Notes under the pieces: generated by a model
The model's database searches: none
What the model saw: the letters and a program-made list of their open reading frames with translations, nothing else
What the model was told of the DNA's origin: nothing
Made by a program: the position numbers and the translations under genes
NCBI GenBank assembly: GCA_009773645.1
Contig: WSYB01000026.1
Span: 1-50,898, forward strand
Length of the DNA: 50,898 nt
From: Geobacteraceae bacterium
GTDB taxonomy: Bacteria; Desulfobacterota; Desulfuromonadia; Geobacterales; Geobacteraceae
Reading direction: 5' to 3'
Part shown: positions 16,159 through 36,581 of the stretch, piece by piece
Layout of the letters: the number at the start of each line of letters is the position of its first letter
Numbering within the stretch: position 1 is the first letter of the stretch

Positions 16159-16192
16159 CCTTAACCTATTTATTTATAAGGAAAGAACAGGT

Positions 16193-17269: not shown

Positions 17270-17291
17270 TTTCTTGTTCCGGAGGGGAAAT

Positions 17292-17813: not shown

Positions 17814-19022
17814 ATGGCCATATACACCTGTAAACTAGGCTCATCCGACGGCAGGATTGTTGAAAAGGAGTTTGAAGCTGTTAACGGGGCAACGCTACGG
17901 CAAAGCCTCGAGGAACAGGGGTATTTTGTTTTTGAATTAAAGAAGAAACCCTTGCAGTTCCTTTGGGAAAAGGGGGTTGCGCGCCGTAAGGTGGACAATA
18001 GGGAACTTCTCACCTTTAATCAGGAACTGCTGGTTCTCATAAAAGCCGGGCTTCCCATAGTGCAGGCATTGGACACTATCCTGGAACGGGTTGAAAAGGG
18101 AAAGCTGCCTGAAATATTGCGTAATATCAGGGAAGACGTTAAGGGAGGGGCCGCACTTTCCGATGCTTTTGAAAAGTATCCCGGCGCTTTCTCCCATCTT
18201 TACATCGCGTCAATTCGCGCAGGTGAAAGGACCGGTGATCTGCCGCAGACCATCAAGCGCTATATAGCTTTTATCAAGATGACCGAAGGGTTTAGAAAGA
18301 AGGTTTTGTCCGCACTTTTTTATCCGGCCATCCTCCTTGCCGTTGCAACTGTTGCCGTCACACTGCTGCTCGTCTATGTCGTTCCAACCTTTAGCCAGAT
18401 ATACGCCGGCGCGGGCTCTCAGCTCCCCGTGCCGACCCAGATGCTGATTGCCTTTACCACCATGCTCCGAAAATATTTACTGGTCTTCATCGGTATACTC
18501 TTTGCCGCTGTAGTTCTGTTCAGACGCTGGAGTACCACCGAGAGAGGGCGTTTCCTGGTTGACGGTTTTAAATTAAAAGCCCCTTTCGTCGGGAAACTTA
18601 TGACTGAATATGCCGTTGCCGGCTTTACCAGGACACTCGCAACCGTCCTGGCGGGCGGGATACCGATCGTCGAATCCCTGAGGATGTCGGTTGGCACCCT
18701 CAATAACAAGGTGCTGGAGCGTAAGCTTTTAGAGGCGGTCACCCGGGTGGAGGAGGGTACCAGCCTTTCTACTGCGCTGGAAAGTGTTCAAATGATGCCT
18801 CCGCTGGCCCTGCGAATGCTGGGAGTTGGGGAAACTACCGGCTCATTGGAGGAAATGCTGCGAGATATTTCGGAGTATTTCGAAGAGGAGATAGACAGGC
18901 ACCTGCACATTTTAACCACAGCCATTGAGCCTGCCATAATGGTGTTCATGGGGGTCGTTATCGGAGTCATTATTATAACTATGTATCTTCCGGTTTTCAA
19001 AATTGCCGGAACTGTAGGCTAG
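17814..19022 (+). CDS. Type II secretion/type IV pilus inner-membrane platform protein (GspF/PilC family)
   Basis: Polytopic inner-membrane protein at the base of pseudopilus assembly machines. The family pattern is clear: two repeated cytoplasmic domains, the first with FNQELLVLIKAGLPIVQALD, the second with FTRTLATVLAGGIPIVESLR, each followed by a GERTG/GETTGSLEEML motif, with membrane helices at about 165-190, 215-235 and 370-395. Length 402 is normal. It is the first gene of a run to 26956 with small gaps or overlaps, so it probably heads the operon. No good ribosome site is seen before ATG 17814. Confidence 0.95.
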   Translation: MAIYTCKLGSSDGRIVEKEFEAVNGATLRQSLEEQGYFVFELKKKPLQFLWEKGVARRKVDNRELLTFNQELLVLIKAGLPIVQALDTILERVEKGKLPEILRNIREDVKGGAALSDAFEKYPGAFSHLYIASIRAGERTGDLPQTIKRYIAFIKMTEGFRKKVLSALFYPAILLAVATVAVTLLLVYVVPTFSQIYAGAGSQLPVPTQMLIAFTTMLRKYLLVFIGILFAAVVLFRRWSTTERGRFLVDGFKLKAPFVGKLMTEYAVAGFTRTLATVLAGGIPIVESLRMSVGTLNNKVLERKLLEAVTRVEEGTSLSTALESVQMMPPLALRMLGVGETTGSLEEMLRDISEYFEEEIDRHLHILTTAIEPAIMVFMGVVIGVIIITMYLPVFKIAGTVG

Positions 19023-19032
19023 AAGGAAAACT

Positions 19033-20754
19033 ATGAGTCGGACATTTACACGAAAAAAACTCGGCGATATTCTGGTTGCACGAGGCGATTTGACCCCGTC
19101 GCAACTCATCTATGCCATAGACAAGCTGAAGACAACCAGTGAGCGTTTCGGAGAGATTTGCAAGGTCGACGGGCTGATTTCAGAAGAAGCCTTGTCCCGG
19201 GCTCTGGCCGAACAGTTTGGGATGGAATATATTGATCTTCAGGGATTCAAGCCGGATGAAGCCATTTTGTATTCACTTCCCCCCGATGTCATGTACCGCT
19301 ATCATTTTGTTCCCCTTGAGCAACAGGGAGAAGCCTTGGTGGTGGCCATTTCCGATCCGACGGATGTGGTTAAGCTTGATGAGCTTGAACTGCTGCTTGA
19401 CAGACCCGTCATATTCAAGATCGCGACAAGCTCGCAGATAACCCATATATTAAAGAAAGGGGAAGGGACCAGCCGCGTTCTTAAAGAGGTTTCCGAAGAT
19501 TTCATGCTCCAGTTGGTGACGGAAACCGAAAAGGGTGAAGAGGTTCTGTCGGTTGAAAAAGTCACTGCCGACACCAGTCCGATTATCAAGCTGGTGAATT
19601 CCACTATACTGGACGCCCTCAGCAGGCGGGCCAGTGATATCCACATCGAAACCGCCCAGGAAGGGGTTATCATCAAATACAGGATCGACGGCGTGTTGTA
19701 TAAGGCAACCGAACCGATCGACCTGCATTTTCAGGGACCGATCATTTCCCGACTTAAGGTCATGAGCGAACTGGATATTTCCGAGCGGCGCATCCCACAG
19801 GACGGCAGATTCAAGGTCAGGATAAATGAAAAATCCATAGACTTTCGCGTCTCGATAATGCCCAGCGCCTTCGGTGAGGATGCCGTTATCCGTATTCTCG
19901 ATAAAGAGAGTATCGCCACCGACCTGAAAGGGCTGACTCTTGACACCCTTGGCATGGCCCCCAGGGAAATCAAACGTTTTCGCAAAATGATCAGAGAACC
20001 TTACGGAATGGTCCTGGTTACAGGCCCCACCGGATCGGGTAAGACCACCACGCTGTATGGAGCGCTTACGGAAATTCACACCGGTGAAGAAAAGATCATA
20101 ACCATTGAGGATCCGGTAGAATACCTTTTACGGGGCATCGTTCAGATACCGGTCAACGAGAAAAAAGGGTTGACCTTTGCCCGCGGACTTCGTTCCATAC
20201 TCAGGCATGACCCCGACAAGATAATGGTCGGTGAAATAAGGGATCCGGAAACGGCCCAGATCGCCGTTCAGTCCGCTCTTACCGGGCATCTGGTCTTCAC
20301 GACCGTTCATGCCAATAACGTTTTTGATGTTCTCGGGCGCTTTACTCACATGGGGATCGATCCATACAATTTTGTTTCGTGTCTGAATTGCGTCATGGCG
20401 CAGCGGCTGGTACGCAAGATCTGCCCAAAATGCAAGTTTCCTGTTATACTCTCCGATGAAACCCTGATGGAATCGGCAATTGATCCCGAAAAATGCCGCG
20501 ACGTAACCTTCTATGATGCAAAGGGATGCGACGATTGCAACGGCACCGGTTATCGCGGCAGGGCAGCCATAGTCGAGCTGTTGGATTTGAACGATGAAAT
20601 CCGTGAACTTATCATTGCCAAGTCGTCGGTTGCCCAGCTGAAAAAAGCCGCAAGGGAAGCTGGAACTGTTTTCCTGCGTGAATCGGCGGTGGAAAAGGTC
20701 TTTGCCGGTGATACGACGCTGCGGGAGATAAACCGCGTCACCTTTGTGGAATAA
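19033..20754 (+). CDS. Type II secretion/type IV pilus assembly ATPase (GspE/PilB family)
   Basis: Hexameric cytoplasmic ATPase that powers pseudopilus assembly. N-terminal MshEN-type domain (LGDILVARGDLTPSQL), then the ATPase core with Walker [11 protein letters not shown] (Lys337), Asp-box IITIEDPVEY, Walker B IMVGEIRDPETA and His-box LTGHLVFTTVHAN. A tetracysteine zinc motif (CPKC near 464-467 and CDDC near 499-502) is typical of GspE/PilB. MshEN domains in other proteins bind cyclic di-GMP; whether this one does is unknown. It lies 10 bp after the platform gene. Confidence 0.95.
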   Translation: MSRTFTRKKLGDILVARGDLTPSQLIYAIDKLKTTSERFGEICKVDGLISEEALSRALAEQFGMEYIDLQGFKPDEAILYSLPPDVMYRYHFVPLEQQGEALVVAISDPTDVVKLDELELLLDRPVIFKIATSSQITHILKKGEGTSRVLKEVSEDFMLQLVTETEKGEEVLSVEKVTADTSPIIKLVNSTILDALSRRASDIHIETAQEGVIIKYRIDGVLYKATEPIDLHFQGPIISRLKVMSELDISERRIPQDGRFKVRINEKSIDFRVSIMPSAFGEDAVIRILDKESIATDLKGLTLDTLGMAPREIKRFRKMIREPYGMVLVTGPTGSGKTTTLYGALTEIHTGEEKIITIEDPVEYLLRGIVQIPVNEKKGLTFARGLRSILRHDPDKIMVGEIRDPETAQIAVQSALTGHLVFTTVHANNVFDVLGRFTHMGIDPYNFVSCLNCVMAQRLVRKICPKCKFPVILSDETLMESAIDPEKCRDVTFYDAKGCDDCNGTGYRGRAAIVELLDLNDEIRELIIAKSSVAQLKKAAREAGTVFLRESAVEKVFAGDTTLREINRVTFVE

Positions 20755-20852: not shown

Positions 20853-21779
20853 ATGCTATTTGCCAAGAAAGCGCTGGGGATTGAAATAAGCCAGGAAGGG
20901 GTGAAGATGGCCCTTGTAGGGGGGAAACGGGATTTGCTCAGCCTGGATGCCTACGGCGCCGCCCCGTTTCCTGCCGATACGGTCAAGTTTTCCCTCAGGG
21001 AAGCAAACATCCATAATCCGGCAGCCTTTGTTGCCGGCATCCGTGAGACCTATCTCAAGCTTCTGACAAGCACTGTGCGCGCATCCGTATCGCTCCCGGA
21101 TTCCATTGGAAGGGTGATGCTGATGGATCTGGAGACGAGATTCAAGAGCAAGGCCGAAGGTGCCGACATAATCCGCTGGAAACTGAAGAAGAGTTTCCCT
21201 TTCGATATAAATGAGGCCCATTTGGATTACCAGGTGTTACGGGAAAATGATTCCGGTGAAATTTCCGCGCTTGTTTCGCTCATTTCCCGGCAGGTGTTGA
21301 ACCAGTATGAAGATCTGTTTGCGGAAGCAGGGCTTCAGCCGAATCGTATAGATTTTACGACCTTTAACCTCTTTAACCTCTTTAGCAAGCGTCTGGAACT
21401 GGCCGAAAACGCCGCCGTAATGATCTGCTATGGGGAAGTGATCAGCATTATGATATTTTACGGTGGGACATTGGAGTTTTATCGCACCAAAGACATTCCC
21501 GGCGGCATGATTGAGGCTAATCGGGTTTTTCGGGAGATAAGCAACTCGCTTTTGGTTTACGGTGACAGGCATCCCGGACATTCAATGCAGGAGGTATTTT
21601 GCATCGCATATAACGAAGATGCCGAGGCTTTTAGCGCTGTTGTCACGGAGGCGACGGGTCTTGAGCCGGTTCTGCTCGATGTGGAACGGATTGTTGCCCG
21701 GAAAAACGGTTTTGCCGCAGACAGAAAGACCCTGCATACTTTGACTGCCGCTCTGGGCGCTGCCATAAGGAATCTTTGA
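20853..21779 (+). CDS. PilM-type actin-like protein of the secretion operon
   Basis: Probable cytoplasmic actin-fold protein that links the ATPase to the inner-membrane PilN/PilO proteins. The N-terminus LFAKKALGIEISQEGVKMAL matches the first beta-hairpin of PilM/GspL-like proteins, and WKLKKSFPFDINEAHLDYQV is a typical PilM segment. 308 residues, somewhat short but in range. The heptamer palindrome lies directly upstream. The stop overlaps the next start (TGATG). Assignment rests on fold-like motifs and gene order. Confidence 0.85.
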   Translation: MLFAKKALGIEISQEGVKMALVGGKRDLLSLDAYGAAPFPADTVKFSLREANIHNPAAFVAGIRETYLKLLTSTVRASVSLPDSIGRVMLMDLETRFKSKAEGADIIRWKLKKSFPFDINEAHLDYQVLRENDSGEISALVSLISRQVLNQYEDLFAEAGLQPNRIDFTTFNLFNLFSKRLELAENAAVMICYGEVISIMIFYGGTLEFYRTKDIPGGMIEANRVFREISNSLLVYGDRHPGHSMQEVFCIAYNEDAEAFSAVVTEATGLEPVLLDVERIVARKNGFAADRKTLHTLTAALGAAIRNL

Positions 21780-22315
21780 TGCAACTGAAGATAAATCTGG
21801 CGACAAAAACTTACATCAACACGCAGCAGCTTAATTGGTCCATTGTTGCGGCTGTTGCCCTGTTAGGTCTCATGCTCTTTCTCAATGTCAGGGATATCGC
21901 CACCAACGCCGGCGAAATAAAACGTGTGGCCAAGGAAATTGCGGTGCTGACAGGGAAATCCGCGGGTGAGAAGGGGGTGTCGGAACAGGAGTATCAGGCT
22001 ATTTTGGCCCGAATCAGGTTTGCCAATAGTATAATAGACAAGAAGACATTTAACTGGCTGACTCTTCTGGACCAACTGGAAAGCAGTGTCCCTGACGGCA
22101 TTGCCCTTACCTCCATCGAGCCCGTTCAGAAGGAATCGGCATTGAAGCTTACCGGTTCTGCCAGGAACTTCAACAACCTGAGAAGTTTCATGGAAAATCT
22201 GGAAAATTCAAAATCGTTTACCGAGGTCTACCTTGTGAGCCAGGCAGAGACCAAGGTTGGAGCAACCCAGAAGGGAATCACATTCAATATTACCTGTAAG
22301 GCAGGTATTAAATGA
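21779..22315 (+). CDS. PilN-type inner-membrane protein
   Basis: Short cytoplasmic N-terminus with INLATKTYINTQQLN, close to the PilN motif that binds PilM, then one membrane helix (about 24-41) and a periplasmic ferredoxin-like domain (LDQLESSVPDGIALTSIEP is typical). 178 residues. The ATG at 21779 overlaps the previous stop (TGATG) and is preceded by aagga; a TTG at 21776 is less likely. Expected partner of the PilM-type and PilO-type neighbours. Confidence 0.88.
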   Translation: MQLKINLATKTYINTQQLNWSIVAAVALLGLMLFLNVRDIATNAGEIKRVAKEIAVLTGKSAGEKGVSEQEYQAILARIRFANSIIDKKTFNWLTLLDQLESSVPDGIALTSIEPVQKESALKLTGSARNFNNLRSFMENLENSKSFTEVYLVSQAETKVGATQKGITFNITCKAGIK

Positions 22316-22863
22316 ATATCAAGTTTATCGAGGATTTATTCAAGGCGCGTCGGAAGTCTTTCCTTGTCATACTTGTTTTGGCGCTGGTTGATACCGGGCT
22401 TTACATCTATGCTTCCGCATATCAGACGCCGCATCTTGCAGCTTTGCAGAACGAATGGTTTGAAAAAAGGAGGCTTGCCGGTGGTGGTGTCGCCCAGGAC
22501 GCGGCGACCGTGTATCGGCAAGGGACTAAAGATCTGGCAGCCTGGAATGCAAGGATTTTTTCGAAAAAGGAGTTTGCCCGTTTTGTCGGCGAATTGTTTG
22601 AAGCCGCAGCCAATAACGCCCTGACCGTGGGAGGGGTGACTTACAAACCTGAGCCGATCAAGGATGAGAAGAATCTGCTCGCTTTTTCCATCGTCTTTAA
22701 TGTGTCCGGCAAATATGCGGCGGTGAAGAGTTTTATAGCGGACCTTGCGCGGCTGCGGGAAATAGTGATCATCGAAAATATTGCTTTGAACAACAGCAAG
22801 CTGACGGAAGAATCTGTGAGTATGAAGCTGCAGTTGACCGCGTATTTCAGGATGGAGGGGTGA
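22312..22863 (+). CDS. PilO-type inner-membrane protein
   Basis: One N-terminal membrane helix (about 17-35), a short coiled segment and a periplasmic ferredoxin-like domain with LLAFSIVFNVSGKYAAVKSF and LRLxxx-like IVIIENIALN segments, as in PilO/GspM. 183 residues. It overlaps the PilN-type gene by ATGA, and the next gene by TGATG. Together these proteins should form the alignment complex between the platform and the secretin. Confidence 0.85.
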   Translation: MNIKFIEDLFKARRKSFLVILVLALVDTGLYIYASAYQTPHLAALQNEWFEKRRLAGGGVAQDAATVYRQGTKDLAAWNARIFSKKEFARFVGELFEAAANNALTVGGVTYKPEPIKDEKNLLAFSIVFNVSGKYAAVKSFIADLARLREIVIIENIALNNSKLTEESVSMKLQLTAYFRMEG

Positions 22864-23477
22864 TGAACCGGCAAAAATTGATCCTCTCCGTCCTTCTGGT
22901 GCTCTTGGTCATTGTTTCCATTTACAGTTACCTGCGCTTACCGAGGCAGAAGACCGTAGAGAGGCTTACGTACACTTCCGGTGCGCCTTCCCAAGGCCGC
23001 AAAGCGGGGACTCCGGCAATAGGAGTGGACGACAAAAAGCTTCATCTTGAACTGCTGGACAGAGAACAGCCCCGTTTTTCCGGTTTTCGGCGCAACATTT
23101 TCATGCCGATTTTCCATGAAGAGGTGAAAGCCCTCCCTCCACCACCGCCTGCGCCACCTGGCAGGCCTGTTCTTCCTCCGCCTCCACCTGCTCCACCCGT
23201 CACAGCACCCCCTGCGACGATTGCTGAACCCACTCCGGTGCAGAAGGATATGGCGAAGTTTACATTTCTCGGCTTTTTAAAGAAAGACAACAAAAAGACC
23301 ATATTCCTTTCCAGCAATAACGAAATATTTCTGGTGAAAAAGGGTGACCTGATAACAGGGAAATATGAGGTTGCAAACATTACCGACGATGCACTGACCA
23401 TCAGTCTCCTTGCCGAAGGAGGGGAGATTGTCATACCCCTGGTGGAAAACAAGACTCTCAGCGCGCCGAGAAAATAA
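22863..23477 (+). CDS. PilP/GspC-like periplasmic linker protein with proline-rich spacer
   Basis: N-terminal membrane helix (about 5-22), then a spacer with a proline-rich stretch at about 90-125, and a C-terminal beta-domain (KFTFLGFLKKDNKKTIFLS, VKKGDLITGKYEVANI) that resembles the HR/pilotin-type domain of GspC and PilP, which binds the secretin. Such spacers usually bridge the periplasm. ATG 22863 overlaps the PilO stop; a GTG at 22860 is also in frame. The assignment is from position and domain shape rather than strong sequence identity. Confidence 0.75.
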   Translation: MNRQKLILSVLLVLLVIVSIYSYLRLPRQKTVERLTYTSGAPSQGRKAGTPAIGVDDKKLHLELLDREQPRFSGFRRNIFMPIFHEEVKALPPPPPAPPGRPVLPPPPPAPPVTAPPATIAEPTPVQKDMAKFTFLGFLKKDNKKTIFLSSNNEIFLVKKGDLITGKYEVANITDDALTISLLAEGGEIVIPLVENKTLSAPRK

Positions 23478-23554
23478 AGGATTTTGTTTTTGTAGTGATG
23501 CATTGTGGTAGTCGCATAGTAAGTGCGTCCCTGCTATTCAAGGAGAGATTACGA

Positions 23555-25990
23555 ATGCAACTTATAGGAAAGACAACTTTGTTGATCTGCATGCTGACCC
23601 TCCTGGCCGGCTGTGCCGGGAGTCTTTCAGCCTTCAACAAGGCGGAAAAGATGGAGCGCGAAGGGAATTATGATGAGGCGGTGCTGAAGTATGCCGAGGC
23701 GGCTGCGGCGAATCCCGACGTCGGCGAGTACCGGATGCGGTTTTTAAAAGCCAGCGAAGCTGCTGCCAAGGTTCATCTCAAAAAGGGTGACGATTTTCTG
23801 GCCGAGAAGAAATACGATGACGCCCTGCGGGAGTACCAGACGGCGTTTGCCCTGGACACGTCCCTTGACCGTGCCAGACAGCAGTCCGACCTGGTCATAA
23901 GGCTCAGGAATTCTCTGTTTTATTTCCAGGAAGGGGAGGCGTTGGAAAAGGACCGCAAGCCCCGAGAGGCGCTCCATTCCTACAGGAAGGCACTTGAGTT
24001 CAACCCCGACAACAAAGAGGCGAAGGAAGCCGTGGATAGGCTTGTGAAAAGCAGACGGACAAAGCTGGACGGCGCCGAGCTGAACCTGAAATCGACCAAG
24101 CCGGTCACCCTTAAATTCAAGGATGCGAAGATCAAGGAAATTTTCAATATCCTTTCCCAACTCTCGGGGATCAATTTCATCTTTGACGAGGGGTTAAAGG
24201 ACCAGAATGTGAGCATCTATCTGGAGAATGCCACGTTCCAGCAGGCGCTTGATATCCTCACCGGCATCAACAAGCTGGGAAAAAAGGTGCTGAACGAAAG
24301 CACCATCATCATCTACCCGAAGAACCCGGAAAAGACCAAACAGTATGAGGAGCTCTTTGTCCAGACCTTCTACCTGAGCAAGCTGGATGCCAAAAAGGCG
24401 GTAAACCTGATCCGGACCATGCTGCAGGTCAAGAAGATTTACGTGAACGAGGAGAATAACGCCCTCGTCATCCGTGACACGCCTGACGTGATAGAGGTGG
24501 CCAGGAAGATACTGGAGGCGAATGATGTCCCCGATGCCGAGGTGCTGCTGGAGGTAGAGGTAATCGAACTCTCCAAGAATAACAAAGAGGCATTCGGGCT
24601 TGCCCTTTCCCAATACAGCGTTTCCCTCAACACCTTGACCCCGCAAGGCTCATTTTTCTCTCCGAGCTTTACCACAACTACTCCAAAAGACAGCACAGCG
24701 GCAACCGCGGCCAATCTGCTTCAGGTATTTAGCAAGAAAGGGTTCAGCGGTTTCATGACGGTGCCGAGCGCCACTTACAATTTTGGCAAGACCCTCGCCA
24801 ATGGGGAGACCCTCGCCAGTCCAAAGATCCGGGTGAAAAACCGGGAGAAGGCAAAGTTTAATTTTGGCACCAGGGTCCCCATCACCACTACATCGTCCCC
24901 CACCGGCGGCGGCGTCAGCGTCAACGTGCAGTACGTTGACGTTGGTACAAAAGTAAACGCGGAGCCGACCATTCAGCTCAACAACGAGGTTACCATAAAA
25001 CTGAGCCTGGAGGTCAGCTCTATCCTGCAAAGGGAAACTGTAGGCGGGACAGACAGCGCCACGACGGTAGTTACCATAGGGACCCGCAACCTTGATACGG
25101 TTCTGAGCCTTAAGGATGGGGAGACAAGCATCATCGGCGGCCTTATCCAGGACCTTAAAACCAAGAGCAAGAGTAAAATCTTTCTCCTTGGCGACATCCC
25201 GCTTATAGGTTCGCTCCTGTCAAGCAATGACAACAGCAATGACAAGACCGAACTGGTGCTGGCCATCACCCCCCGGATCGTCCGCGGGATAACCGTTCCT
25301 GAGCTGGATGTGGCGGCCTTCTGGTCAGGTAAGGAAGATGAGCCGTCTTCCGCCAAGCCTTATTCATCCTTTATCCAGGAACCTGAACTCGTCCAGCCGC
25401 CGTCCTCCACACCACCTTCGGAACCGGGTGTTTCAGCCGCGCCGCCTGCCGCTGCGGTGCCTTCCGCGCCTGCAGCTCCATCAACCGGCGCCCCGCCGCC
25501 TTCCCAGGCGCCACCTGCTGCCGGAACTCCTCAGGCCCAGGCGCCGGTGCCGGTTCCTCCCCCCCAGCAGCCCATCAGCAGGGCTTTGGTTAATATAACG
25601 GCGCCGAAGTCAGTCAAGGTTAACGACCAATTCACCGTTGAAATAAAGGCTTCCGATGTGAGCAACCTGTATAACGCCCCTTTTATTCTGGTCTATGATC
25701 CGATTTTTCTCGATTTTGTGGGGGCAGCAGAAGGGAGTTTTTTAAAACAGGACGGGAAGCCAACTTCATTTCGCACAACCGTTGACAAAAATACCGGCCA
25801 GGTAACCATCGCTCTCAACAGGGTCGGCGATGTCGGCGGGGTAAGCGGCGCGGGCACGCTTTTGACTGCAACTTTAAAGGCCAGGAACAAGGGACCGGCG
25901 AGTTTTGGATTTATGGGGGTCAACTTTACCGACCCGGCAGGCAAACCACTGGACGCCGTTCCGTATAACGCCGTCGTTGAGGTGCAATAG
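23555..25990 (+). CDS. Secretin lipoprotein with N-terminal TPR-like region and C-terminal cohesin domain
   Basis: Outer-membrane channel of the secretion system. Signal peptide with lipobox LLAGC (Cys20), TPR-like repeats (about 24-165), N-domains (about 170-330; LKFKDAKIKEIFNILSQLSG, LVIRDTPDVIEVARKIL) and the secretin core (about 335-585) with the signature GDIPLIGSLLSS and LVLAITPRIV. A Pro/Ala-rich linker (about 600-673) then leads to a cohesin-like domain (about 675-811; VNDQFTVEIKASDVSNL, LVYDPIFLDFVGA, GAGTLLTATLKA). The start at 23555 has aaggagag upstream. The cohesin tail is unusual for a secretin and suggests a docking partner. The operon resembles, from memory, the atypical OxpG-type system of G. 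sulfurreducens. Confidence 0.93.
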   Translation: MQLIGKTTLLICMLTLLAGCAGSLSAFNKAEKMEREGNYDEAVLKYAEAAAANPDVGEYRMRFLKASEAAAKVHLKKGDDFLAEKKYDDALREYQTAFALDTSLDRARQQSDLVIRLRNSLFYFQEGEALEKDRKPREALHSYRKALEFNPDNKEAKEAVDRLVKSRRTKLDGAELNLKSTKPVTLKFKDAKIKEIFNILSQLSGINFIFDEGLKDQNVSIYLENATFQQALDILTGINKLGKKVLNESTIIIYPKNPEKTKQYEELFVQTFYLSKLDAKKAVNLIRTMLQVKKIYVNEENNALVIRDTPDVIEVARKILEANDVPDAEVLLEVEVIELSKNNKEAFGLALSQYSVSLNTLTPQGSFFSPSFTTTTPKDSTAATAANLLQVFSKKGFSGFMTVPSATYNFGKTLANGETLASPKIRVKNREKAKFNFGTRVPITTTSSPTGGGVSVNVQYVDVGTKVNAEPTIQLNNEVTIKLSLEVSSILQRETVGGTDSATTVVTIGTRNLDTVLSLKDGETSIIGGLIQDLKTKSKSKIFLLGDIPLIGSLLSSNDNSNDKTELVLAITPRIVRGITVPELDVAAFWSGKEDEPSSAKPYSSFIQEPELVQPPSSTPPSEPGVSAAPPAAAVPSAPAAPSTGAPPPSQAPPAAGTPQAQAPVPVPPPQQPISRALVNITAPKSVKVNDQFTVEIKASDVSNLYNAPFILVYDPIFLDFVGAAEGSFLKQDGKPTSFRTTVDKNTGQVTIALNRVGDVGGVSGAGTLLTATLKARNKGPASFGFMGVNFTDPAGKPLDAVPYNAVVEVQ

Positions 25991-26014: not shown

Positions 26015-26509
26015 ATGAAGATGATACGAGTAAATAACAGAGGGATCACTATTGTCGAACTGGTCGTGACCATGGCCATTCTTACCATCCTGGCTTCGCT
26101 GATTCTGCCGTCGGCACAGATGACGGCCAGGAGGGTGAAGGAGATCGAGCTCAGGAGGAACCTGAGAATAATCCGCACTGCCATCGACGATTTCAAAAAG
26201 TATTATGATAAGGCGATTTTCGATAAGAAAATCATGGATGTGGTGAACAAATCGGGGTATCCTGAGTCTTTGCAGCTGCTGGTTGACGGGTACGACTTCG
26301 GGGGGGCTTTGAAGGAAAAGAAAAAGTTTCTCCGCAGAATCCCCACGGATCCCTTCACCCCCTCCAAGCCTGGGGAGGAGCCGGAGTGGGGACTCCGGGC
26401 CTATGCCGACGAGCCTGACACCACAACTTGGGGGGGCGAGGATGTGTATGACGTGTATTCCTTGAGCGAAGGAACGGCCATTGATGGAACCAAATACAAG
26501 GAGTGGTAA
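26015..26509 (+). CDS. Type II secretion pseudopilin (first)
   Basis: Type IV pilin-like N-terminus: a short positive leader, then cleavage expected after Gly in NNRG|ITIVELVVTMAIL, with the conserved Glu at +5 and the hydrophobic helix. The globular part contains FLRRIPTDPFTP, WGLRAYADEPD and DVYDVYSLSEG, typical of GspG-like major pseudopilins with their C-terminal calcium-loop region. 164 residues. It lies 24 bp after the secretin. The substitution of Ile-Thr for the usual Phe-Thr at the cleavage site is still acceptable to prepilin peptidases. No prepilin peptidase is present in the window. Confidence 0.9.
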   Translation: MKMIRVNNRGITIVELVVTMAILTILASLILPSAQMTARRVKEIELRRNLRIIRTAIDDFKKYYDKAIFDKKIMDVVNKSGYPESLQLLVDGYDFGGALKEKKKFLRRIPTDPFTPSKPGEEPEWGLRAYADEPDTTTWGGEDVYDVYSLSEGTAIDGTKYKEW

Positions 26510-26542
26510 ACGGCTGCCGTTTATTTTAGAGTGAGATAATTG

Positions 26543-26956
26543 ATGCTGAAAAGGCTTTTAAGAAAACAGAAGGGGTTTACCCTGATAGAGCTGATGATCG
26601 TCATGACCATCATCGGCATTCTTGCCTCCATAGCCGTTCCCAACTACAAATGGGGGATCATCAAGGCGAAAGAAGCCGTGCTCCGGGAGGACCTGTACAA
26701 TCTCCGCAATGTCCTGGACCAGTTTTACGCCGATCAGGGGAAATTTCCCGATTCGCTCCAGGAACTGGTTGAGAAGCAGTACCTGCGAGATATCCCCAAA
26801 GACCCTTTTACCGGCAAGAATGACACATGGGTGGTTTTGCCCCCCATTAACCTTGGACAGATGGTAACCGAGGAAAGAGGAATCGGTAATGTCTATGATG
26901 TGCACAGCGGTTCCAATCTGGTGGGTTCAAATACTGTCCCTTATAATGAATGGTGA
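26543..26956 (+). CDS. Type II secretion pseudopilin (second, GspG-like)
   Basis: Canonical prepilin signal KQKG|FTLIELMIVMTIIGILASIAVP followed by a GspG-like body: DLYNLRNVLDQFYADQGKFP, LVEKQYLRDIPKDPFTG and VYDVHSGS. 137 residues. Start chosen at ATG 26543; a TTG at 26540 is in frame. Shares the pattern xDPFTx...VYDVxS with the first pseudopilin, so the pair probably arose by duplication. It ends the secretion operon before an intergenic hairpin and ftsE. Confidence 0.92.
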   Translation: MLKRLLRKQKGFTLIELMIVMTIIGILASIAVPNYKWGIIKAKEAVLREDLYNLRNVLDQFYADQGKFPDSLQELVEKQYLRDIPKDPFTGKNDTWVVLPPINLGQMVTEERGIGNVYDVHSGSNLVGSNTVPYNEW

Positions 26957-27053: not shown

Positions 27054-27725
27054 ATGGTTCAGCTCCATAATGTTTTTATGTCGTATCAGCGCGACGTGGC
27101 CGCGCTCAACGGCATAAATCTCACAATCCCCAAAGGGGATTTTGTTTTTATAACCGGCGTATCGGGCGCCGGGAAATCGACACTTCTCAAACTCCTTTAC
27201 GGGGCTTTGCAACCTTCCCGTGGACAGGTTGTCGTTGACGGTCAGAATGTCACCAGGCTTTCCCGTGCGCAGATACCTTACCTGCGCCGAAATATTGGAG
27301 TGGTGTTCCAGGATTTCAAGCTCCTTCCCAACCGTACTGTCCTGGAGAATGTGGCGATAACCCTGGAAGTGCTCGGGTGGGGAAAAAAGGATATCGGCAA
27401 GAAAGTTTATCATATCCTGAAACAGTTGGGGCTGGAGCACAAGATTAACTCCACTCCATTGCGGCTTTCCGGTGGTGAACAACAGCGGGTTGCGTTGGCG
27501 CGGGCGCTGGTTAACGACCCGAAGATACTCCTGGCTGACGAGCCGACCGGGAACCTGGACGAAGAGAACAAGGAGCAGATTCTTGCCATTTTCAAGGAGG
27601 CCAACATTCGCGGAACAACGGTGCTGGTTGCCACCCATGACCGGCGACTGACCGAAAACTGCCACAGGAGGATGGTCGTCCTGGAAAAGGGCCAGGTAGT
27701 GGAGGATTCCGATGTCCCGCAATAA
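27054..27725 (+). CDS. ftsE: Cell division ATP-binding protein FtsE
   Basis: ABC-type ATPase that with FtsX controls peptidoglycan hydrolysis at the septum. Walker A GVSGAGKST (35-43), Q-loop VFQDFKLLPNRTV, signature LSGGEQQRVALARAL, Walker B ILLADEPTGNLD and switch His in ATHD. The motif HNVFMSY at the N-terminus is typical of FtsE. 223 residues. It overlaps ftsX by 14 bp, the usual arrangement. Confidence 0.96.
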   Translation: MVQLHNVFMSYQRDVAALNGINLTIPKGDFVFITGVSGAGKSTLLKLLYGALQPSRGQVVVDGQNVTRLSRAQIPYLRRNIGVVFQDFKLLPNRTVLENVAITLEVLGWGKKDIGKKVYHILKQLGLEHKINSTPLRLSGGEQQRVALARALVNDPKILLADEPTGNLDEENKEQILAIFKEANIRGTTVLVATHDRRLTENCHRRMVVLEKGQVVEDSDVPQ

Positions 27726-28656
27726 ACCGGCTAAAAGGCCCAGGCTGACCAATGAAGGGTTTCTGGGTAGGTTGAACTTCTTTTTCGCCAGGGCGCTCAT
27801 TAATATCAGACAGAATATCTTTATCCATCTGGTGACCATCGGCACCATCGCCATCGCCCTCCTTATCATATCCCTTTTCCTTCTGGTTTATGTAAATCTT
27901 GAAGGGGCTGCGGATGTTTGGAGCAACAGAGTTCAGGTAACGGCGTACTTCGAACGAGAGCTGAACCAGCAGGAAATAACGACGCTTAAGACCGGGATTC
28001 TTGCCTTGTCGGGAACCGACAAGGTGGCTTATGTTGCCAGGGAAGAGGCGGTCAAACGGTTCCGGGCCAGATTGAAAGGGCAGGAATCTCTACTTGACGG
28101 GGTGACTGCCGATGTGTTGCCTGCGTCGATAGAGATCAATCTGAAAAGCGGCAGCCGCAGCAGTGAAGCCATCGAAGCCTATGTCGTCCGTTTGAAGAAG
28201 ATTCCGGGGATAAGTGAGGTGCAGTATGGTGAGGAATGGGTCAAACGTTTCACTGCCTTCATGAACTTTATGCGCCTTGTGGGTGCGCTCTTGGGGGGCT
28301 TTCTGCTTCTGGCGGTGGTTTTTATCGTATCCAACACCATCAAACTGACCATATATGCCAGAAAGGATGAACTGGAACTCCTGAGCCTGGTGGGCGCCAC
28401 CAGATTTTTCATCAAGGCGCCGTTCTTAATCGAAGGTATTTTCCAGGGAGCTCTCGGTGCGCTTTTGTCCCTTCTCGTTCTCACCGCCTGTTACTTCGGG
28501 TTTCTTCATAACGCGGGCAATTTCGTGAGCTTCAATCCGGCCAGCGTCGGCCTGTCATTTCTCCCCGTTACCCATCTGGCCGGTGTTTTTTTCGGGGGGG
28601 TCTGTCTTGGCTTCCTGGGCAGTCTTACATCCCTGAAGCGTTTCATAAACGTATAG
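27712..28656 (+). CDS. ftsX: Cell division protein FtsX
   Basis: Membrane partner of FtsE. Long cytoplasmic N-terminus, first helix at about 40-62 (LVTIGTIAIALLIISLF), an extracytoplasmic loop (about 65-190), then three helices in the C-terminal FtsX-type permease domain (LLGGFLLLAVVFIVSNTIKL, then LELLSLVGATRFFIKAPFL with the typical GA.R.FI motif). 314 residues. The extracytoplasmic loop would activate the EnvC-type protein encoded next, two bases downstream. Confidence 0.95.
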   Translation: MSRNKPAKRPRLTNEGFLGRLNFFFARALINIRQNIFIHLVTIGTIAIALLIISLFLLVYVNLEGAADVWSNRVQVTAYFERELNQQEITTLKTGILALSGTDKVAYVAREEAVKRFRARLKGQESLLDGVTADVLPASIEINLKSGSRSSEAIEAYVVRLKKIPGISEVQYGEEWVKRFTAFMNFMRLVGALLGGFLLLAVVFIVSNTIKLTIYARKDELELLSLVGATRFFIKAPFLIEGIFQGALGALLSLLVLTACYFGFLHNAGNFVSFNPASVGLSFLPVTHLAGVFFGGVCLGFLGSLTSLKRFINV

Positions 28657-28658
28657 AC

Positions 28659-29843
28659 ATGGTCCGAATTACGGTATTTATCATAGCATTTGTTTCCTGC
28701 CTGGCCTCCGAACCCCGTTGCGCGGACGTAAAAGAGGAACTGCAGGATATCAATAAGGAGATTAAGGAGAAAAAACTCCTCCTGAAAAAGACGAGGAAGG
28801 TCGAAACCAAGGTCAGCGGCGATCTGGAAAAGATTGAAAAGAGCCTGCACGAAAAGGAGGCAAACCTCGATTCTCTAGGGCGGGACCTGAAAGGGGTGGA
28901 GACCACCCTGGAACGCACTCAGAACGAAATTGAGGTGGTCAAAGTGGAGGCCGAGCGCAAGAAACAGCAGATAAGTCGGCGTCTGGCCTCACTTTACAAA
29001 GCCGGAGAAGCCGGCCCCGTTCGCATGTTCTTTTCTTCGGAATCTTTTCCGCAGATGACGGAAAACCTGCGCTACATGAATTCCGTACTGCAAAACGACA
29101 GAAAGTTGTTTGCCGACTACAATACAAAGATTGAGCGGCTTGGGGTGCTCAAGGGGACCCTTGAGAAGGATGCGGCGCGTAAGGAGAAGATCAAGGCGGG
29201 CATCGAGGTGAAGAAACAGGAGATTGAGGAGGAAAAGAAGAAAAAGGCCGCCCATCTCATCAAGATCAGGGAAGACAAAAAAAGTTACCAGGCATCGCTC
29301 AAAGAACTGGAAGCCAACGCCAGAAGACTTCAGGCAATGGTGGAAAGGCTTGAAGCAAAAAGCAGAAAGAGTTATAGTAAAAAGATCGAAAATAAATCCG
29401 GTGTGGGAGCCGATCATTCCCTCCCCGCTATCCCGAATAAAGGCTTCGGTGCCCAGAAGGGGCGGCTTGCCATACCGGTTAAGGGTGAAATTATCGGAAC
29501 GTTTGGCCGGCACAAACACCCCGAATTCAATTCCTACACCGTCAGTAACGGAATTTCCATTGCTGCCCCGGCCGGGACCGATATCCATTCGGTTTACGAG
29601 GGTCAGGTCATATTTGCCGACTATTTTAAAGGTTACGGGAATATGGTTATAGTGGACCATGGCGGCGGTTTTTTCAGCCTGTACGGGCATGCGGCGAAGA
29701 TTGTGAAAAAGGTTGGGGCGACTGTTGCCAGAAATGATGTGGTGGCCAGTGTCGGTGAGGTCGATTCGACCAGAGGCCCCATGGTGTATTTTGAGATCAG
29801 GTATCAGGGAAAGCCGGTTGACCCGACGCAGTGGTTCCGTTAA
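28659..29843 (+). CDS. EnvC-type murein hydrolase activator (degenerate M23 domain)
   Basis: Exported protein with a long coiled coil (about 25-250, many Lys/Glu heptads) and a C-terminal LytM/M23 domain (about 270-394). The zinc ligands of active M23 enzymes appear lost: where HxxxD is expected the protein reads NGISIAAP, and the last ligand is replaced in VYFEIRYQG. The same loss occurs in E. coli EnvC, which activates amidases rather than cutting itself. Immediate position after ftsEX supports this role. A heptamer-repeat hairpin follows 4 bp after the stop. Confidence 0.9.
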   Translation: MVRITVFIIAFVSCLASEPRCADVKEELQDINKEIKEKKLLLKKTRKVETKVSGDLEKIEKSLHEKEANLDSLGRDLKGVETTLERTQNEIEVVKVEAERKKQQISRRLASLYKAGEAGPVRMFFSSESFPQMTENLRYMNSVLQNDRKLFADYNTKIERLGVLKGTLEKDAARKEKIKAGIEVKKQEIEEEKKKKAAHLIKIREDKKSYQASLKELEANARRLQAMVERLEAKSRKSYSKKIENKSGVGADHSLPAIPNKGFGAQKGRLAIPVKGEIIGTFGRHKHPEFNSYTVSNGISIAAPAGTDIHSVYEGQVIFADYFKGYGNMVIVDHGGGFFSLYGHAAKIVKKVGATVARNDVVASVGEVDSTRGPMVYFEIRYQGKPVDPTQWFR

Positions 29844-29847
29844 AGGC

Positions 29848-29909
29848 GTGAAGGGTGAAGTGTGAAAAGTGAAAAAAGCTTTTTTCACCCTTCACTTTTC
29901 ACCTTTCAC
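29848..29909. repeat. Inverted heptamer repeat of the GTGAANN type
   Basis: The left arm is four heptamers gtgaagg, gtgaagt, gtgaaaa, gtgaaaa plus aa (29848-29877). The right arm (29880-29909), read in reverse complement, is gtgaaag, gtgaaaa, gtgaagg, gtgaaaa plus aa. The centre is gc. The two 30-base arms fold into a long hairpin ending next to T-rich sequence; it begins 5 bases after the EnvC-type stop codon and may act as a terminator. Confidence 0.85.
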
Positions 29910-29922
29910 ATGAAATCAGTGA

Positions 29923-29950
29923 CATAGAACATAGAACATAGAACATAGAA
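29923..29950. repeat. Four tandem heptamers catagaa before the CtpA-type gene
   Basis: catagaa is repeated four times without interruption, directly after the GTGAANN palindrome and 15 bases before the gggagg ribosome site of the protease gene. It resembles gtagaac at 20815 with one change per unit. Confidence 0.9.
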
Positions 29951-29973
29951 CAACGATTCATTAGGGAGGCAAG

Positions 29974-31308
29974 ATGTTCAAAAGTAACAGAGGCAAGAAG
30001 ATAGCCCTGCTGGTAGCAGTGGCCACCCTGCTGGCGGTTTTTGTCGGGGTGGGAACCCAGCGCAGGTGCGCCGCGCAGGGTGGGAATGATTATGAGTCCA
30101 TAGAACTTTTCACCGATGTCCTTTCCATAGTGAAGAAAAGCTACGTGGAAGAGGTGGATACAAAAAAACTCATCTACGGCGCCATCAACGGCATGCTGGC
30201 CTCTCTGGACCCGCACAGTTCTTTCATGCCTCCTGAAACGTACAAGGAGATGAAGATAGAAACCAAGGGTTCCTTTGGCGGACTGGGAATAGAAATATCC
30301 ATCAAAGACGGCCTTCTGACGGTTATTTCTCCCATCGAAGACACTCCCGCTTTCAAGGCAGGGATAAAGGCCGGTGACCAGATTCTGAAAATCGACGAGA
30401 AGTTCACCAAGGATCTGAGCATAATGGATGCGGTCAAGCGCATGAGGGGCCCCAAGGGAACCAAGGTGACCCTTACCATCATGCGCGATGGATTGGATAA
30501 ACCCAAGGAATTTCCTCTGGTACGGGATATCATCCAGGTAAAAAGCGTTAAATTCAAGACACTGGATGAAGGATACGGTTATGTGAGGATAGCGCAGTTT
30601 CAGGAGAAAACCGATGACGACCTGGACAAGGCGCTTGCTGCCCTGAGGGAAGAAAGCGGCGGTAAACTGCACGGACTGGTGCTTGATCTGCGCAACGATC
30701 CGGGCGGCCTTCTGGACCAGGCAGTCAGGGTGGCGGAACATTTCGTCGATGAAGACCAGCTTATAGTCTATACCGAAGGGCGCGAAAAGGATTCCAAAAT
30801 GAAGTTCACCTCCCGGAAAGGTGACAAAGAACCGCATTATCCCATCGTGGTACTGATAAACGGCGGCAGCGCAAGCGCCTCCGAGATAGTGGCAGGCGCC
30901 CTGCAGGACCATAAGCGGGCCGTTGTCATGGGAACCCAGAGTTTCGGCAAGGGGTCGGTCCAAACCATTATTCCGCTTTCCGACAATTCCGGATTGCGTC
31001 TTACCACTGCCCGGTATTTTACTCCCAGCGGGCGTTCCATACAGGCCAAAGGGATTACCCCGGATATCACGGTGGAAAAAATCGATCTCCCTGCATCGGA
31101 GAAGAAAGAAACCATGCACATCCGCGAAAAGGACCTGGAGAATCACTTTGAAACAGAAGGAAAGGGAAAGGACACAGCCGAGGAAAAGAAGAGTGAGAAG
31201 CAGCCACGTTACAAGACAGACGAACAGGTCAAGGGGGACTACCAGATACTCAGGGCGCTTGATCTGCTCAAAGGCTGGGATATCCTGAAGAAAGTTACCG
31301 CCGGGTAA
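29974..31308 (+). CDS. C-terminal processing peptidase (S41 family, CtpA type)
   Basis: Periplasmic serine protease. Signal anchor (about 9-27), an N-terminal helical part, a PDZ domain (about 100-180; GGLGIEISIKDGLLTVISP and AGIKAGDQILKIDEK), and the protease core. The Ser-Lys dyad is Ser301 (GGSASASEI) and Lys326 (FGKGS); their 25-residue spacing equals that of E. coli Tsp. A charged C-terminal tail follows. Such proteases often trim peptidoglycan hydrolases or their regulators, which fits the EnvC-type and YibQ-type neighbours. gggagg lies just upstream of the start. Confidence 0.95.
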   Translation: MFKSNRGKKIALLVAVATLLAVFVGVGTQRRCAAQGGNDYESIELFTDVLSIVKKSYVEEVDTKKLIYGAINGMLASLDPHSSFMPPETYKEMKIETKGSFGGLGIEISIKDGLLTVISPIEDTPAFKAGIKAGDQILKIDEKFTKDLSIMDAVKRMRGPKGTKVTLTIMRDGLDKPKEFPLVRDIIQVKSVKFKTLDEGYGYVRIAQFQEKTDDDLDKALAALREESGGKLHGLVLDLRNDPGGLLDQAVRVAEHFVDEDQLIVYTEGREKDSKMKFTSRKGDKEPHYPIVVLINGGSASASEIVAGALQDHKRAVVMGTQSFGKGSVQTIIPLSDNSGLRLTTARYFTPSGRSIQAKGITPDITVEKIDLPASEKKETMHIREKDLENHFETEGKGKDTAEEKKSEKQPRYKTDEQVKGDYQILRALDLLKGWDILKKVTAG

Positions 31309-31448: not shown

Positions 31449-31490
31449 AATATCTTGTCATACGCAAGTGGTGAACTTCCAAACAGAACA

Positions 31491-33880: not shown

Positions 33881-35296
33881 ATGAGAACCCCGCTCAAAAA
33901 TCTATTTCTTATGTTAGCTTTGTTGTCACTTCAAGCGACCGCGGCATTCGGTGCCCAGATTTCCGTCTCCCCGTCAGGCGGTAAAACCGGTAATATCTTT
34001 GTTGTGCAGGGGATCAACCTGACAAATATTGCAGGGTTCAAGATTACCGTTAAGTACGATACGTCAAAGCTCGCCAAACCCAAGGTGACCGAGGGGAGCC
34101 TCATCAGCGGCGCGATGATGGTGCAGAACACCGCTATTCCCGGTTCAGTTATAATTGCGGCCGCCACCACTACGCCAATAAACGGTTCCGGTCCGATTGC
34201 CACCTTGACTTTTGAACGTATCGGGAGTTCTTCCGGCGGGATCCTTTCCATTACGCCAGAACTGACCACCGCAGATCTAAAAAATCTCTCCGACGTGGGA
34301 GCAGAAATAAGCGACTCCGGTGGAGAACAGACTGCGGGAACAATGCTCACTGATAAGACCGGCGACAAGACTGGCGATAAGACCGGCGATAAGACCGGTG
34401 ATAAGACCGGTGGCCCGACCGGCGGCACGACATGGCTGGGAAGCGTTACCTTGCCTACGGAAGGCGACATGAAAGAGGAAAAGCCGAAGGAGGAAGCTCC
34501 CTCTGCCCCCATGGGTAGTGAACCGAGAAGGGAAGAGACGGCGGCAGTTGTCGGTGAAACTGAAGTCGCTCGACTGAGCGAGGAAACCAAGCAACCGGCA
34601 GCCGCTTCTGAAAAGAAATATGTTGCACACAAAAGCGTTCAGAATCGTTTCAAAGAGTTTAAAGGGGAACAAACCCCGAAATCCCTGACGGCCCTATTTG
34701 AGATGGGCGTTATGCCGGGCATCAGGCAGGAGCCCGCAATCGTCCTTTCCGACGGCAAATCCAAGGTAAAGGTCTTTATCGAATCCCCTCCGACCGCGAA
34801 AGAGGCCCCCAATTTCGCGCTGAAGGGAGCAAAACTCATATCGTTGAAGACGGAGGGGAAATCGTGGGTTGTCGAGGCGTTGCCCAAGGAGAAGGTAAAC
34901 GTTGCAACCATAACGGTGCTGCAGGACGGCACTATGACCGAGATTCAGCTGACCGTTGCACAGCCTCTCGATCCGGCTGCAATTAAAGGCGGCCTGCTTG
35001 ATGAAGCATCGTTCAATCTTTTCATCAAGGAACGTGGTACTGAAAAAGCTCCCAAGTTTGACCTGAACGGCGACGGGGTGAGGGACTACTTAGACGATTA
35101 CATTTTTACCGCAAATTATATGGTAAAGAACGAAGTGAAGAAAAAGCCAAAAGAAGAGCCAAAGGCGAAAGAAGTGCCGAAGTTAAAAGAAGGGCCGAAG
35201 TTAAAAGAAGAACCGAAGTTAAAAGAAGAACCGAAGACGAAAGGCGAGCCGAAGTTGAAGCAAAAGGACGTGCCAAAAACCGAACTCAAAAAATGA
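33881..35296 (+). CDS. Exported protein with cohesin domain and dockerin-like EF-hand
   Basis: Signal peptide ending AAFGA (about residue 25). N-terminal cohesin-like domain (about 26-145; ISVSPSGGKTGNIFVVQGIN, FKITVKYDTSKL, GPIATLTFERI), close in style to the tail of the secretin. A low-complexity (DKTG)5 linker (about 158-178), a mid region (about 250-370) of beta structure, and then a complete calcium-loop FDLNGDGVRDYLDD with ligands at Asp394, Asn396, Asp398 and Asp405, like one half of a dockerin. A lysine-rich tail built from repeats of PKLKEE ends the protein. The combination suggests it binds cohesins, perhaps the secretin's. 471 residues; ends at a strong terminator. Confidence 0.85.
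   Translation: MRTPLKNLFLMLALLSLQATAAFGAQISVSPSGGKTGNIFVVQGINLTNIAGFKITVKYDTSKLAKPKVTEGSLISGAMMVQNTAIPGSVIIAAATTTPINGSGPIATLTFERIGSSSGGILSITPELTTADLKNLSDVGAEISDSGGEQTAGTMLTDKTGDKTGDKTGDKTGDKTGGPTGGTTWLGSVTLPTEGDMKEEKPKEEAPSAPMGSEPRREETAAVVGETEVARLSEETKQPAAASEKKYVAHKSVQNRFKEFKGEQTPKSLTALFEMGVMPGIRQEPAIVLSDGKSKVKVFIESPPTAKEAPNFALKGAKLISLKTEGKSWVVEALPKEKVNVATITVLQDGTMTEIQLTVAQPLDPAAIKGGLLDEASFNLFIKERGTEKAPKFDLNGDGVRDYLDDYIFTANYMVKNEVKKKPKEEPKAKEVPKLKEGPKLKEEPKLKEEPKTKGEPKLKQKDVPKTELKK
34352..34411 (+). repeat. Five 12-bp in-frame repeats coding for DKTG
   Basis: gataagaccggc and close variants repeat five times inside the cohesin-dockerin gene, coding a flexible linker. The unit length is divisible by three, so copy number can vary without frameshift. 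Confidence 0.9.
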
Positions 35297-35639: not shown

Positions 35640-36581
35640 TTGGCTAAGCGAAAAAAGACCACCAATAGCAGAAAAATTCAGGGGGGCAAGCGGCCTTTGG
35701 TCGCCCTCCTGATTACCATAATATTAATCGTTCTGGCGTTTTATCTGCTGGAAACGCTGCAAAAAGCCATGGAGGAAAAGCCGGTTGTGAAACCTGGGGC
35801 CATAGGGAGATACAAGCTGCCGCCCAGGGTCGAAGACCGATCTGCGGTACATCAGCCTTATACTACGCTGACTGTAACCCCACCGGCAAGGTATCCGAAA
35901 ATAAAGCGGCCGACCGGACCCGGTACCGTGGCGATCATCGTGGACGACATGGGGAGCAACATTCAGGAGGCCAGGGCGCTCATGGGGATAAACGTCCCCA
36001 TAACCTTTTCCCTTATCCCCGGCCTGCCGAAGGTGAAGGAGGTGGCTGAGGCGGCCCATGGCAAGGGGGTCCAGGTAATGGTCCATATGCCGATGGAGCC
36101 CAAGGGGTATCCGCAGCAGCGGATGGAAAAAAGCGGCCTCCTGCTGGGCCAGGAGAACGAAGAGATTAAAAGGAGGGTGAGAGGCTATCTTCAGACCATT
36201 CCCCATGCAGTTGGCGCCAATAACCACATGGGGTCGCAGTTTACCGAGGATGAAGAGAAGATGGGGGCCGTATTCAACGTGTTGAAGGAAAGGGGGTTCT
36301 TCTTCATCGACAGCAGGACCAGCCCGAAATCGGTGGGGTACGCCCTCGCCCGCGCCGTGGGGATTGAGACGGCGTCCAGGAACGTGTTTCTGGATAATGA
36401 CCAGCAGGTGGGCGCCGTCAAGGCCCAGCTTGGGCAACTGGCCGGCATGGCCAGAAAACGGGGGAGCGCCATCGGCATCTGTCATCCCCACAGGGCGACC
36501 ATTCAGGCGCTTGCGGCTGAACTGCCGGTTTTACAGAAAGAGGGGATAACGTTTGTCTATGCTTCGGAACTGGTGAGGTGA
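35640..36581 (+). CDS. Divergent polysaccharide deacetylase family protein (YibQ/DUF610 type)
   Basis: N-terminal membrane anchor (about 20-42), a short linker and a NodB-like fold (about 95-313): VAIIVDDMGSN, PITFSLIPGLP, VQVMVHMPMEP, NNHMGSQFTED, GFFFIDSRTS and AIGICHPH are the family motifs. In E. coli yibQ stands beside envC; here the EnvC-type gene is only a few genes upstream. The enzyme activity of this family is not established to my knowledge. Start is TTG 35640, supported by gggaggga. The stop is followed at once by a heptamer-repeat palindrome. Confidence 0.9.
   Translation: MAKRKKTTNSRKIQGGKRPLVALLITIILIVLAFYLLETLQKAMEEKPVVKPGAIGRYKLPPRVEDRSAVHQPYTTLTVTPPARYPKIKRPTGPGTVAIIVDDMGSNIQEARALMGINVPITFSLIPGLPKVKEVAEAAHGKGVQVMVHMPMEPKGYPQQRMEKSGLLLGQENEEIKRRVRGYLQTIPHAVGANNHMGSQFTEDEEKMGAVFNVLKERGFFFIDSRTSPKSVGYALARAVGIETASRNVFLDNDQQVGAVKAQLGQLAGMARKRGSAIGICHPHRATIQALAAELPVLQKEGITFVYASELVR

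Follow-up and report, generated by a model that had tools for sequence, protein, structure and literature searches.

A Cohesin-Tailed Secretin in an Atypical Type II Secretion Locus of Geobacter Relatives and a Possible Cohesin–Dockerin Relay Mounted on It

Introduction

How type II secretion systems (T2SSs) recognize their folded substrates is an old question that still awaits an answer. A locus from a Geobacteraceae bacterium (Desulfobacterota; Desulfuromonadia; Geobacterales) raises it in a specific form, namely what a cohesin at the end of a secretin would be there to dock. The DNA analyzed here, hereafter the window, is the whole stretch of 50,898 nucleotides at positions 1 to 50,898 of contig WSYB01000026.1 (assembly GCA_009773645.1). 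The original prediction described one of its genes as a secretin with a TPR-like N-terminus and, after a Pro/Ala linker, a C-terminal cohesin, for which it proposed a docking function.

Results

The Secretin Ends in a Cohesin

The preferred start of the secretin ORF at 23495–25990 is the ATG at 23555, which has AAGGAG just upstream and yields the lipoprotein signal MQLIGKTTLLICMLTLLAGC (Table 1). Pfam searches with the 831-residue ORF product revealed STN (E 2.2e-7), Secretin_N (E 7.1e-11), and Secretin (E 1.6e-37, residues 436 to 597), that is, the PF00263 core together with its N domains, and the predicted TPR-like N-terminus was recovered as TPR_2 (E 2.7e-12). The protein shares the STN and secretin domains and the pore with the GspD and PilQ secretins. 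However, it differs from both in its N-terminal TPRs and terminal cohesin, and it scores far under the corresponding equivalog cut-offs (169 versus 351 bits for GspD, TIGR02517; 151 versus 284 bits for PilQ).

The assignment of the C-terminal region after the Pro/Ala linker as a cohesin is borne out by Pfam, profile searches, fold prediction, and structural matches. The Pfam Cohesin model matched residues 699 to 801 of the 831-residue ORF with an E value of 9e-11 and 42.6 bits, against a cut-off of 24.1. Searched against PDB sequences at E ≤ 1, a profile of 34 tails ranked 34 cohesin structures (a few labeled by their parent protein) ahead of four non-cohesins (E 0.14 to 0.82), for a total of 38 matches; a single tail in phmmer gave weak cohesin matches, the best at E 0.086. 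AlphaFold predicted the tail alone (139 residues, 25571–25987) as all-β with a mean pLDDT of 95.9, and the nine main strands, as we grouped them, form a jelly-roll fold like that of solved cohesins. By title, the best 50 Foldseek matches are cohesins or cohesin-bearing scaffoldin pieces, as are the best 50 VIA-align matches, which run from Z 18.4 (5nrk_A) to Z 12.6 (rank 50); 2o4e, among the structural matches, is titled only “protein-protein interaction module.” The best 50 VIA-align rows rule out, as to fold, the alternative of an ordinary Ig domain. Chance or an assembly oddity is likewise ruled out, because 114 of the 146 genomes in a class-wide sample match the tail profile. Thus, that the secretin carries a true cohesin is as good as certain. 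Strands 8, 3, 6, and 5, which we take to be the canonical dockerin-binding face of a cohesin, are not significantly more conserved in the tail than the other face (p 0.73 within the order, 0.07 outside it).

Table 1. Features of the window and the basis of their assignment
Feature	Coordinates	Strand	Basis
T2SS inner-membrane protein F	17814..19022	+	PF00482 E 2.6e-55
T2SS/T4P ATPase, GspE/PilB-like, with MshEN domain	19033..20754	+	Domain and family models
PilM-like protein	20853..21779	+	PF11104
PilN-like protein	21776..22315	+	PF05137
PilO-like protein	22312..22863	+	PF04350
Probable PilP/GspC-like protein, Pro-rich linker	22860..23477	+	Position; conserved in relatives
Secretin gene with C-terminal cohesin	23555..25990	+	ORF open from GTG 23495
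Lipoprotein signal peptide, lipobox LAGC at its end	23555..23614	+	Sequence
TPR region (approximate extent)	23624..24040	+	Pfam TPR_2 E 2.7e-12 and weaker TPR models
STN and Secretin_N domains	24170..24538	+	Pfam
Secretin core	24800..25285	+	PF00263 E 1.6e-37
Pro/Ala-rich linker, 75 residues	25346..25570	+	Sequence
Cohesin domain	25571..25987	+	Pfam, profile search, predicted structure, structural matches
Pseudopilin	26015..26509	+	N_methyl
Pseudopilin, GspG-like	26540..26956	+	Family models
FtsE, FtsX, M23 peptidase, S41 protease; conserved neighbors that identify the locus	27054..31308	+	Pfam; relatives
Coh2: signal-peptide-like start, cohesin, linker, β domain, dockerin-like module	33881..35296	+	Pfam, AlphaFold, alignment
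Coh2 cohesin	33956..34309	+	PF00963 24.7 bits (cut-off 24.1); VIA Z 15.0
Coh2 β-rich domain	34619..34954	+	AlphaFold model
Coh2 dockerin-like module; of its two calcium loops, the second (DLNGDGVRDYLD) is intact and the first is degenerate	34976..35143	+	Alignment, profile, AlphaFold
Polysaccharide deacetylase	35640..36581	+	Neighbor of S41 at many loci from outside the order, at which no Coh2 was found

The Surrounding Genes Encode an Atypical T2SS

The E, F, secretin, and pseudopilin genes lie in one cluster, as in a T2SS, and the gene order from F to the S41 protease is unchanged in 20 regions from relatives, contig ends excepted (L053 and L056). The protein encoded just upstream of the secretin, which we list as PilP/GspC-like, matched no Pfam family above the cut-off. 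OmpB secretion by the Pul system is said to have its primary report in a 2006 paper by Mehta. By gene content and published description, the window system is probably the atypical “Pul/Oxp” T2SS of Geobacter relatives. Excerpts of one account (PMC3543383) describe Pul as required for OmpB secretion in G. sulfurreducens and place it close to genes for cell division, an arrangement given for Geobacter genomes. Pul/Oxp of G. sulfurreducens is a T2SS with pseudopilins in this setting, and the window has FtsEX after its secretion genes, which fits; the same excerpts mention neither cohesin nor dockerin.

Directly upstream of the secretion genes, the region 14327–17269 holds genes for an NHL-repeat-like protein and for two c-type cytochromes with multiple haems (CXXCH), and a relative of the third of these genes is found in 14 of the 20 regions. 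This recurrence hints that the locus may be connected with extracellular electron transfer. An ORF of 171 residues with three CXXCH motifs (17199–17714) overlaps the final stretch of the 358-residue cytochrome and looks like a separate small frame or remnant, because the seven-haem protein of relatives has about the same length as the latter. Farther upstream, the ORFs at 711–3080 and 3053–4843 overlap in different frames and both carry RCC1 repeats; they may be parts of a single frameshifted gene. A BTAD-domain (SARP-like) regulator is encoded at 31455–32135, between the genes for the S41 protease and Coh2, and also in L050, L057, and L058.

The Tail Is Widespread across the Class

A PF00963 search of the genome from which the window derives gave two matches at E ≤ 0.001, and PF00963 was matched in 51 of 58 relatives. 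Across the class, the genomes that match the tail profile represent 49 of 60 genera and, by row count, comprise 64 of the 72 sampled within the order and 50 of the 74 sampled beyond it. In 20 of 20 loci outside the order, which were chosen from tail-bearing genomes and one of which (L272) is only 8 kb long, the tail is on the secretin and the same pseudopilin follows.

Within the order, the tail has decayed in genus g4, in which neither Coh2 (see below) nor dockerins were detected: the tail is out of frame in G003, and in G013 it is mostly deleted, with an out-of-frame remnant. These frame disruptions may be draft-assembly errors. G040 encodes a secretin that lacks the tail, and its genome has one weak dockerin match. 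Among the tail-less genomes, the secretin was shown to be intact only in G013 and G040; G025, G026, and G050 gave no secretin match at threshold, G048 gave a distant match only, the secretin of G033 is in pieces, and G087, G096, G122, G128, and G133 lie outside the secretin check.

Some genomes have more than one secretin. L284 and L288 (G046 and G075) contain two copies ∼8 to 10 kb apart, one cohesin-tailed and one with a Pro-rich end only, and in G083 cohesin-tailed secretins are encoded at two sites far from each other (L290 and L291). The Pul system of Pelobacter carbinolicus is described as duplicated in excerpts of PMC3543383.

A Second Cohesin Protein Carries a Dockerin-Like Module

About 8 kb downstream of the secretin gene lies the gene for a second, adaptor-like cohesin protein, Coh2, whose C-terminal module is preceded by a β domain, an arrangement of cohesin and C-terminal dockerin-like module that resembles those of cellulosomes. 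The AlphaFold model shows a low-confidence linker and, at the C-terminal module, two helices around the calcium loop DLNGDGVRDYLD. A type I dockerin has two DxNxDGxxDxxD loops, and the window Coh2 has one, its first loop being degenerate; that first loop is retained in some relatives (e.g., L039 and L072). In an unpicked set of 32 Coh2 ORFs from relatives, a strict pattern of the DxNxDGxxDxxD type occurs in 28 and a near form in two more, and it is absent from the remaining two (a fragment and an ORF cut by a contig end). A profile of 31 Coh2 modules (A3) found as its best PDB match the cellulosomal dockerin 2y3n_B (E 8e-4), followed by EF-hand proteins. The near-invariance of the calcium ligands in A3 is partly by construction, since its 30 nonwindow rows were picked by the motif and two of the 32 ORFs (L067 and L073) were dropped for lacking it. 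PF00404 at E ≤ 0.5 matches four of 29 Coh2 family members and finds nothing in the C-terminus of the window copy. Because there is no Pfam call in the window copy, we refer to the module as dockerin-like rather than as a formal member of the family.

Coh2 is present in 44 of the 58 relatives, all 44 of which have a PF00963 match at a second place; as read from the rows, these second-place matches are mostly in ORFs of ∼650 to 1,040 residues. It lies on the same contig as the tail, at most ∼11 kb away, in 22 of the 44, and many of the other assemblies are draft. The higher count of 14 among 20 fetched regions is biased, as the first 12 regions were picked for two neighboring cohesins, and the 22 of 44 is the unbiased figure. 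A cohesin tail persists in seven of the 14 relatives without Coh2; in one of the seven it is out of frame. In G010 and G029, a Coh2 relative lacks both the cohesin and the dockerin, and the secretin tail is retained. No Coh2 relative was found beside the tail in the 20 loci outside the order, including the one that spans only 8 kb. In a structure search with Coh2, cohesins filled the list and the β domain was barely covered among the matches listed, so its likeness to a cellulosomal X module is one of position only.

Dockerins End Other Proteins of the Same Genomes

A dockerin profile built from five proteins of the window's own genome gave ten matches in that genome, two of which, when scanned, proved to be Ig/cadherin-repeat proteins. 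A multicopper oxidase of the same genome also ends in a dockerin, at a marginal PF00404 score (23.0 bits, just above the cut-off of 22.9). Searched against solved dockerins, the exoprotein dockerin profile (A1) gave weak matches to 2y3n_B, 4uyp_B, and 4uyq_B (E 0.005 to 0.008). The dockerin forms the extreme C-terminus in 29 of 30 loci, taken one per genome, the exception being L093.

Dockerin-ended oxidases were found in G009, G018, G028, and G036, and also in records of Geotalea toluenoxydans, of Pelotalea chapellei, and of two MAGs. The latter four are a minority: of 80 oxidase loci, 78 contain the oxidase motif (L161 and L228 do not), and a dockerin is present on four of these 78 (L149, L150, L151, and L153). 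L151 possibly comes from the species of G018, and two loci (L212 and L216) run off their contigs. The oxidases of the Geobacter genus g9 are ruled out as carriers, with no dockerin on any of 11 multicopper oxidase ORFs from three genomes. By analogy with these, OmpB, the proven substrate, may be without a dockerin. Excerpts of PMC6199725 also refer to dockerin, cupredoxin, and laccase domains in Geobacter genes.

A Possible Relay on the Secretin, Weighed against Its Rivals

The presence in the same bacteria of a cohesin-tailed secretin and of plug-bearing partner proteins suggests that docking of secreted proteins is built into this machinery. As its form we tentatively propose a two-tier cohesin–dockerin relay mounted on the secretin. 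The 12 to 15 secretin copies would carry a ring of cohesins, which we infer to lie near the periplasmic mouth of the pore. The Coh2 dockerin would plug into a secretin cohesin, and the Coh2 cohesin would in turn hold dockerin-ended exoproteins (Ig-repeat proteins and the multicopper oxidase), so that these clients would be concentrated at the gate or kept attached after export. In solved GspD structures the secretin C-termini are on the periplasmic side, which favors a gathering of clients before export, and surface tethering would require the tail or Coh2 to be outside. A 2007 study by Qian, cited in the context of OmpB, reportedly deals with surface exposure. Excerpts of PMC5566968 describe OmpB as outer-membrane associated; retention is, in view of this and of that surface exposure, a real alternative.

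The presence of Coh2 and of exoprotein dockerins is tightly linked. Among the 58 relatives, 40 have both, 12 have neither, four have Coh2 only, and two have the dockerin only (p 1.6e-7), and the corresponding counts after collapse to 25 genera are 19, 4, 1, and 1 (p 0.002). These and the other p values given here are optimistic, since related species share ancestry and are not independent. The relay would fit this tight Coh2–dockerin link, the weaker association of either with the tail, and the lack of both Coh2 modules in G010 and G029. A very tight cohesin–dockerin bond could be an obstacle to export, which counts against the relay. So do the tails kept in relatives without Coh2, the conservation of the two cohesin faces, the small share of oxidases with a dockerin, and the degenerate first calcium loop of the window Coh2.

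The tail may instead act independently of dockerins, as a structural ring, in contact with the outer membrane or peptidoglycan, or with some other class-wide partner, the dockerin proteins then forming an unrelated adhesion system. We consider this somewhat unlikely as an account of the tail overall, yet it draws on what is seen outside the order, where 50 of the 74 sampled genomes are tailed and dockerins are scarce: A1 matches one of 74 genomes, Pfam finds a dockerin in ten of 50 tail-bearing and two of 24 tail-less genomes, and the combined searches give 11 of 50 versus two of 24 (p 0.20). Because the tail is common there while dockerins are scarce and no Coh2 adjoins it in the 20 loci, it must have some role without these partners; and since the tails of that set (27 sequences) share conserved motifs of their own, among them LYSAP, GYKQG, and NFR, they likely bind another ligand. 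Within the order, however, loss or frameshift of the tail coincides with near-absence of dockerins, and Coh2 never occurs without another cohesin in the 58 relatives, both of which argue against an independent role.

Direct binding of dockerin-ended exoproteins by the secretin cohesin, with Coh2 as a separate soluble or surface scaffold, is in our view unlikely. It would account for the dockerins at the extreme C-termini of the Ig-repeat proteins and the multicopper oxidase, and for their distribution in the order sample, in which A1 matches 54 of 64 tail-bearing genomes versus one of eight tail-less genomes (p 9e-5). With PF00404 added, the counts become 58 of 64 versus one of eight; we give both because some PF00404 matches may be EF-hand proteins, namely those in G035, G038, and G041 (L128 and L135 were read so). 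Against direct binding, dockerins are more weakly associated with PF00963 cohesins generally (p 0.014) than with Coh2, and G010 and G029 retain the tail without detected dockerins. These two belong to a set of five cohesin-bearing genomes, with G003, G011, and G046, that gave no match in any of three dockerin searches. Head-to-tail polymerization of Coh2 through its own cohesin and dockerin, with the secretin tail merely capping or anchoring the chain, is suggested by the presence of both modules on one polypeptide but is improbable, as the pairing of cohesins and dockerins in cellulosomes generally keeps a scaffoldin from self-binding.

The docking function of the original prediction is therefore upheld in part. 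The dockerin-like end in the same locus, the dockerin-ended proteins in the same genomes, and their joint presence and absence speak for it, and on sequence grounds dockerin docking is probable in the Geobacter relatives; the scarcity of dockerins outside the order and the 11 g9 oxidases without one speak against it.

Discussion

The window system shares the cohesin fold and dockerin-ended clients with the scaffoldins and anchoring scaffoldins (types I and II) of cellulosomes, and the proposed relay can be likened to a scaffoldin/anchor pair, here known from sequences and models. Unlike in the cellulosome, the cohesin is on the secretin of a Gram-negative secretion system, one per chain, and the clients scanned here include no cellulases. 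Cohesins outside the cellulosome have precedents. The first Foldseek match of the tail is such a cohesin (2xdh, Archaeoglobus fulgidus), and the cohesin/dockerin adhesins of ANME and of the sulfate reducers associated with them are likewise noncellulosomal; in the main text of the two papers on the latter, the terms “secretin” and “type II secretion” are absent. Even on its own, the tail extends a core component of the secretion machinery class-wide, and we found no description of a cohesin-tailed secretin in the literature searched. An earlier notice is possible, most likely in Peer et al. 2009, and protein databases may well display the secretin–cohesin domain pair automatically.

Substrate sorting by dockerin is an attractive possibility. 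Its full form, in which a C-terminal dockerin would be a sorting tag, read by an adaptor scaffoldin on the secretin cohesin ring that delivers or retains the exoprotein, we regard as doubtful. If true, T2SS substrate choice would be a plug-and-socket code at the outer-membrane gate, and recognition would become amenable to in vitro assays on small soluble domains, in nonpathogenic metal-reducing bacteria. It would also account for the retention of surface oxidases and adhesins at the site of metal reduction.

The Big_1 lipoprotein at 32264–33733 found no support as a third cohesin protein, with a best E value of 0.014 (database size set to 1). Relatives of this lipoprotein adjoin further ORFs that combine cohesin and dockerin matches in L077 (G034:C3) and L078 (G056:C6).
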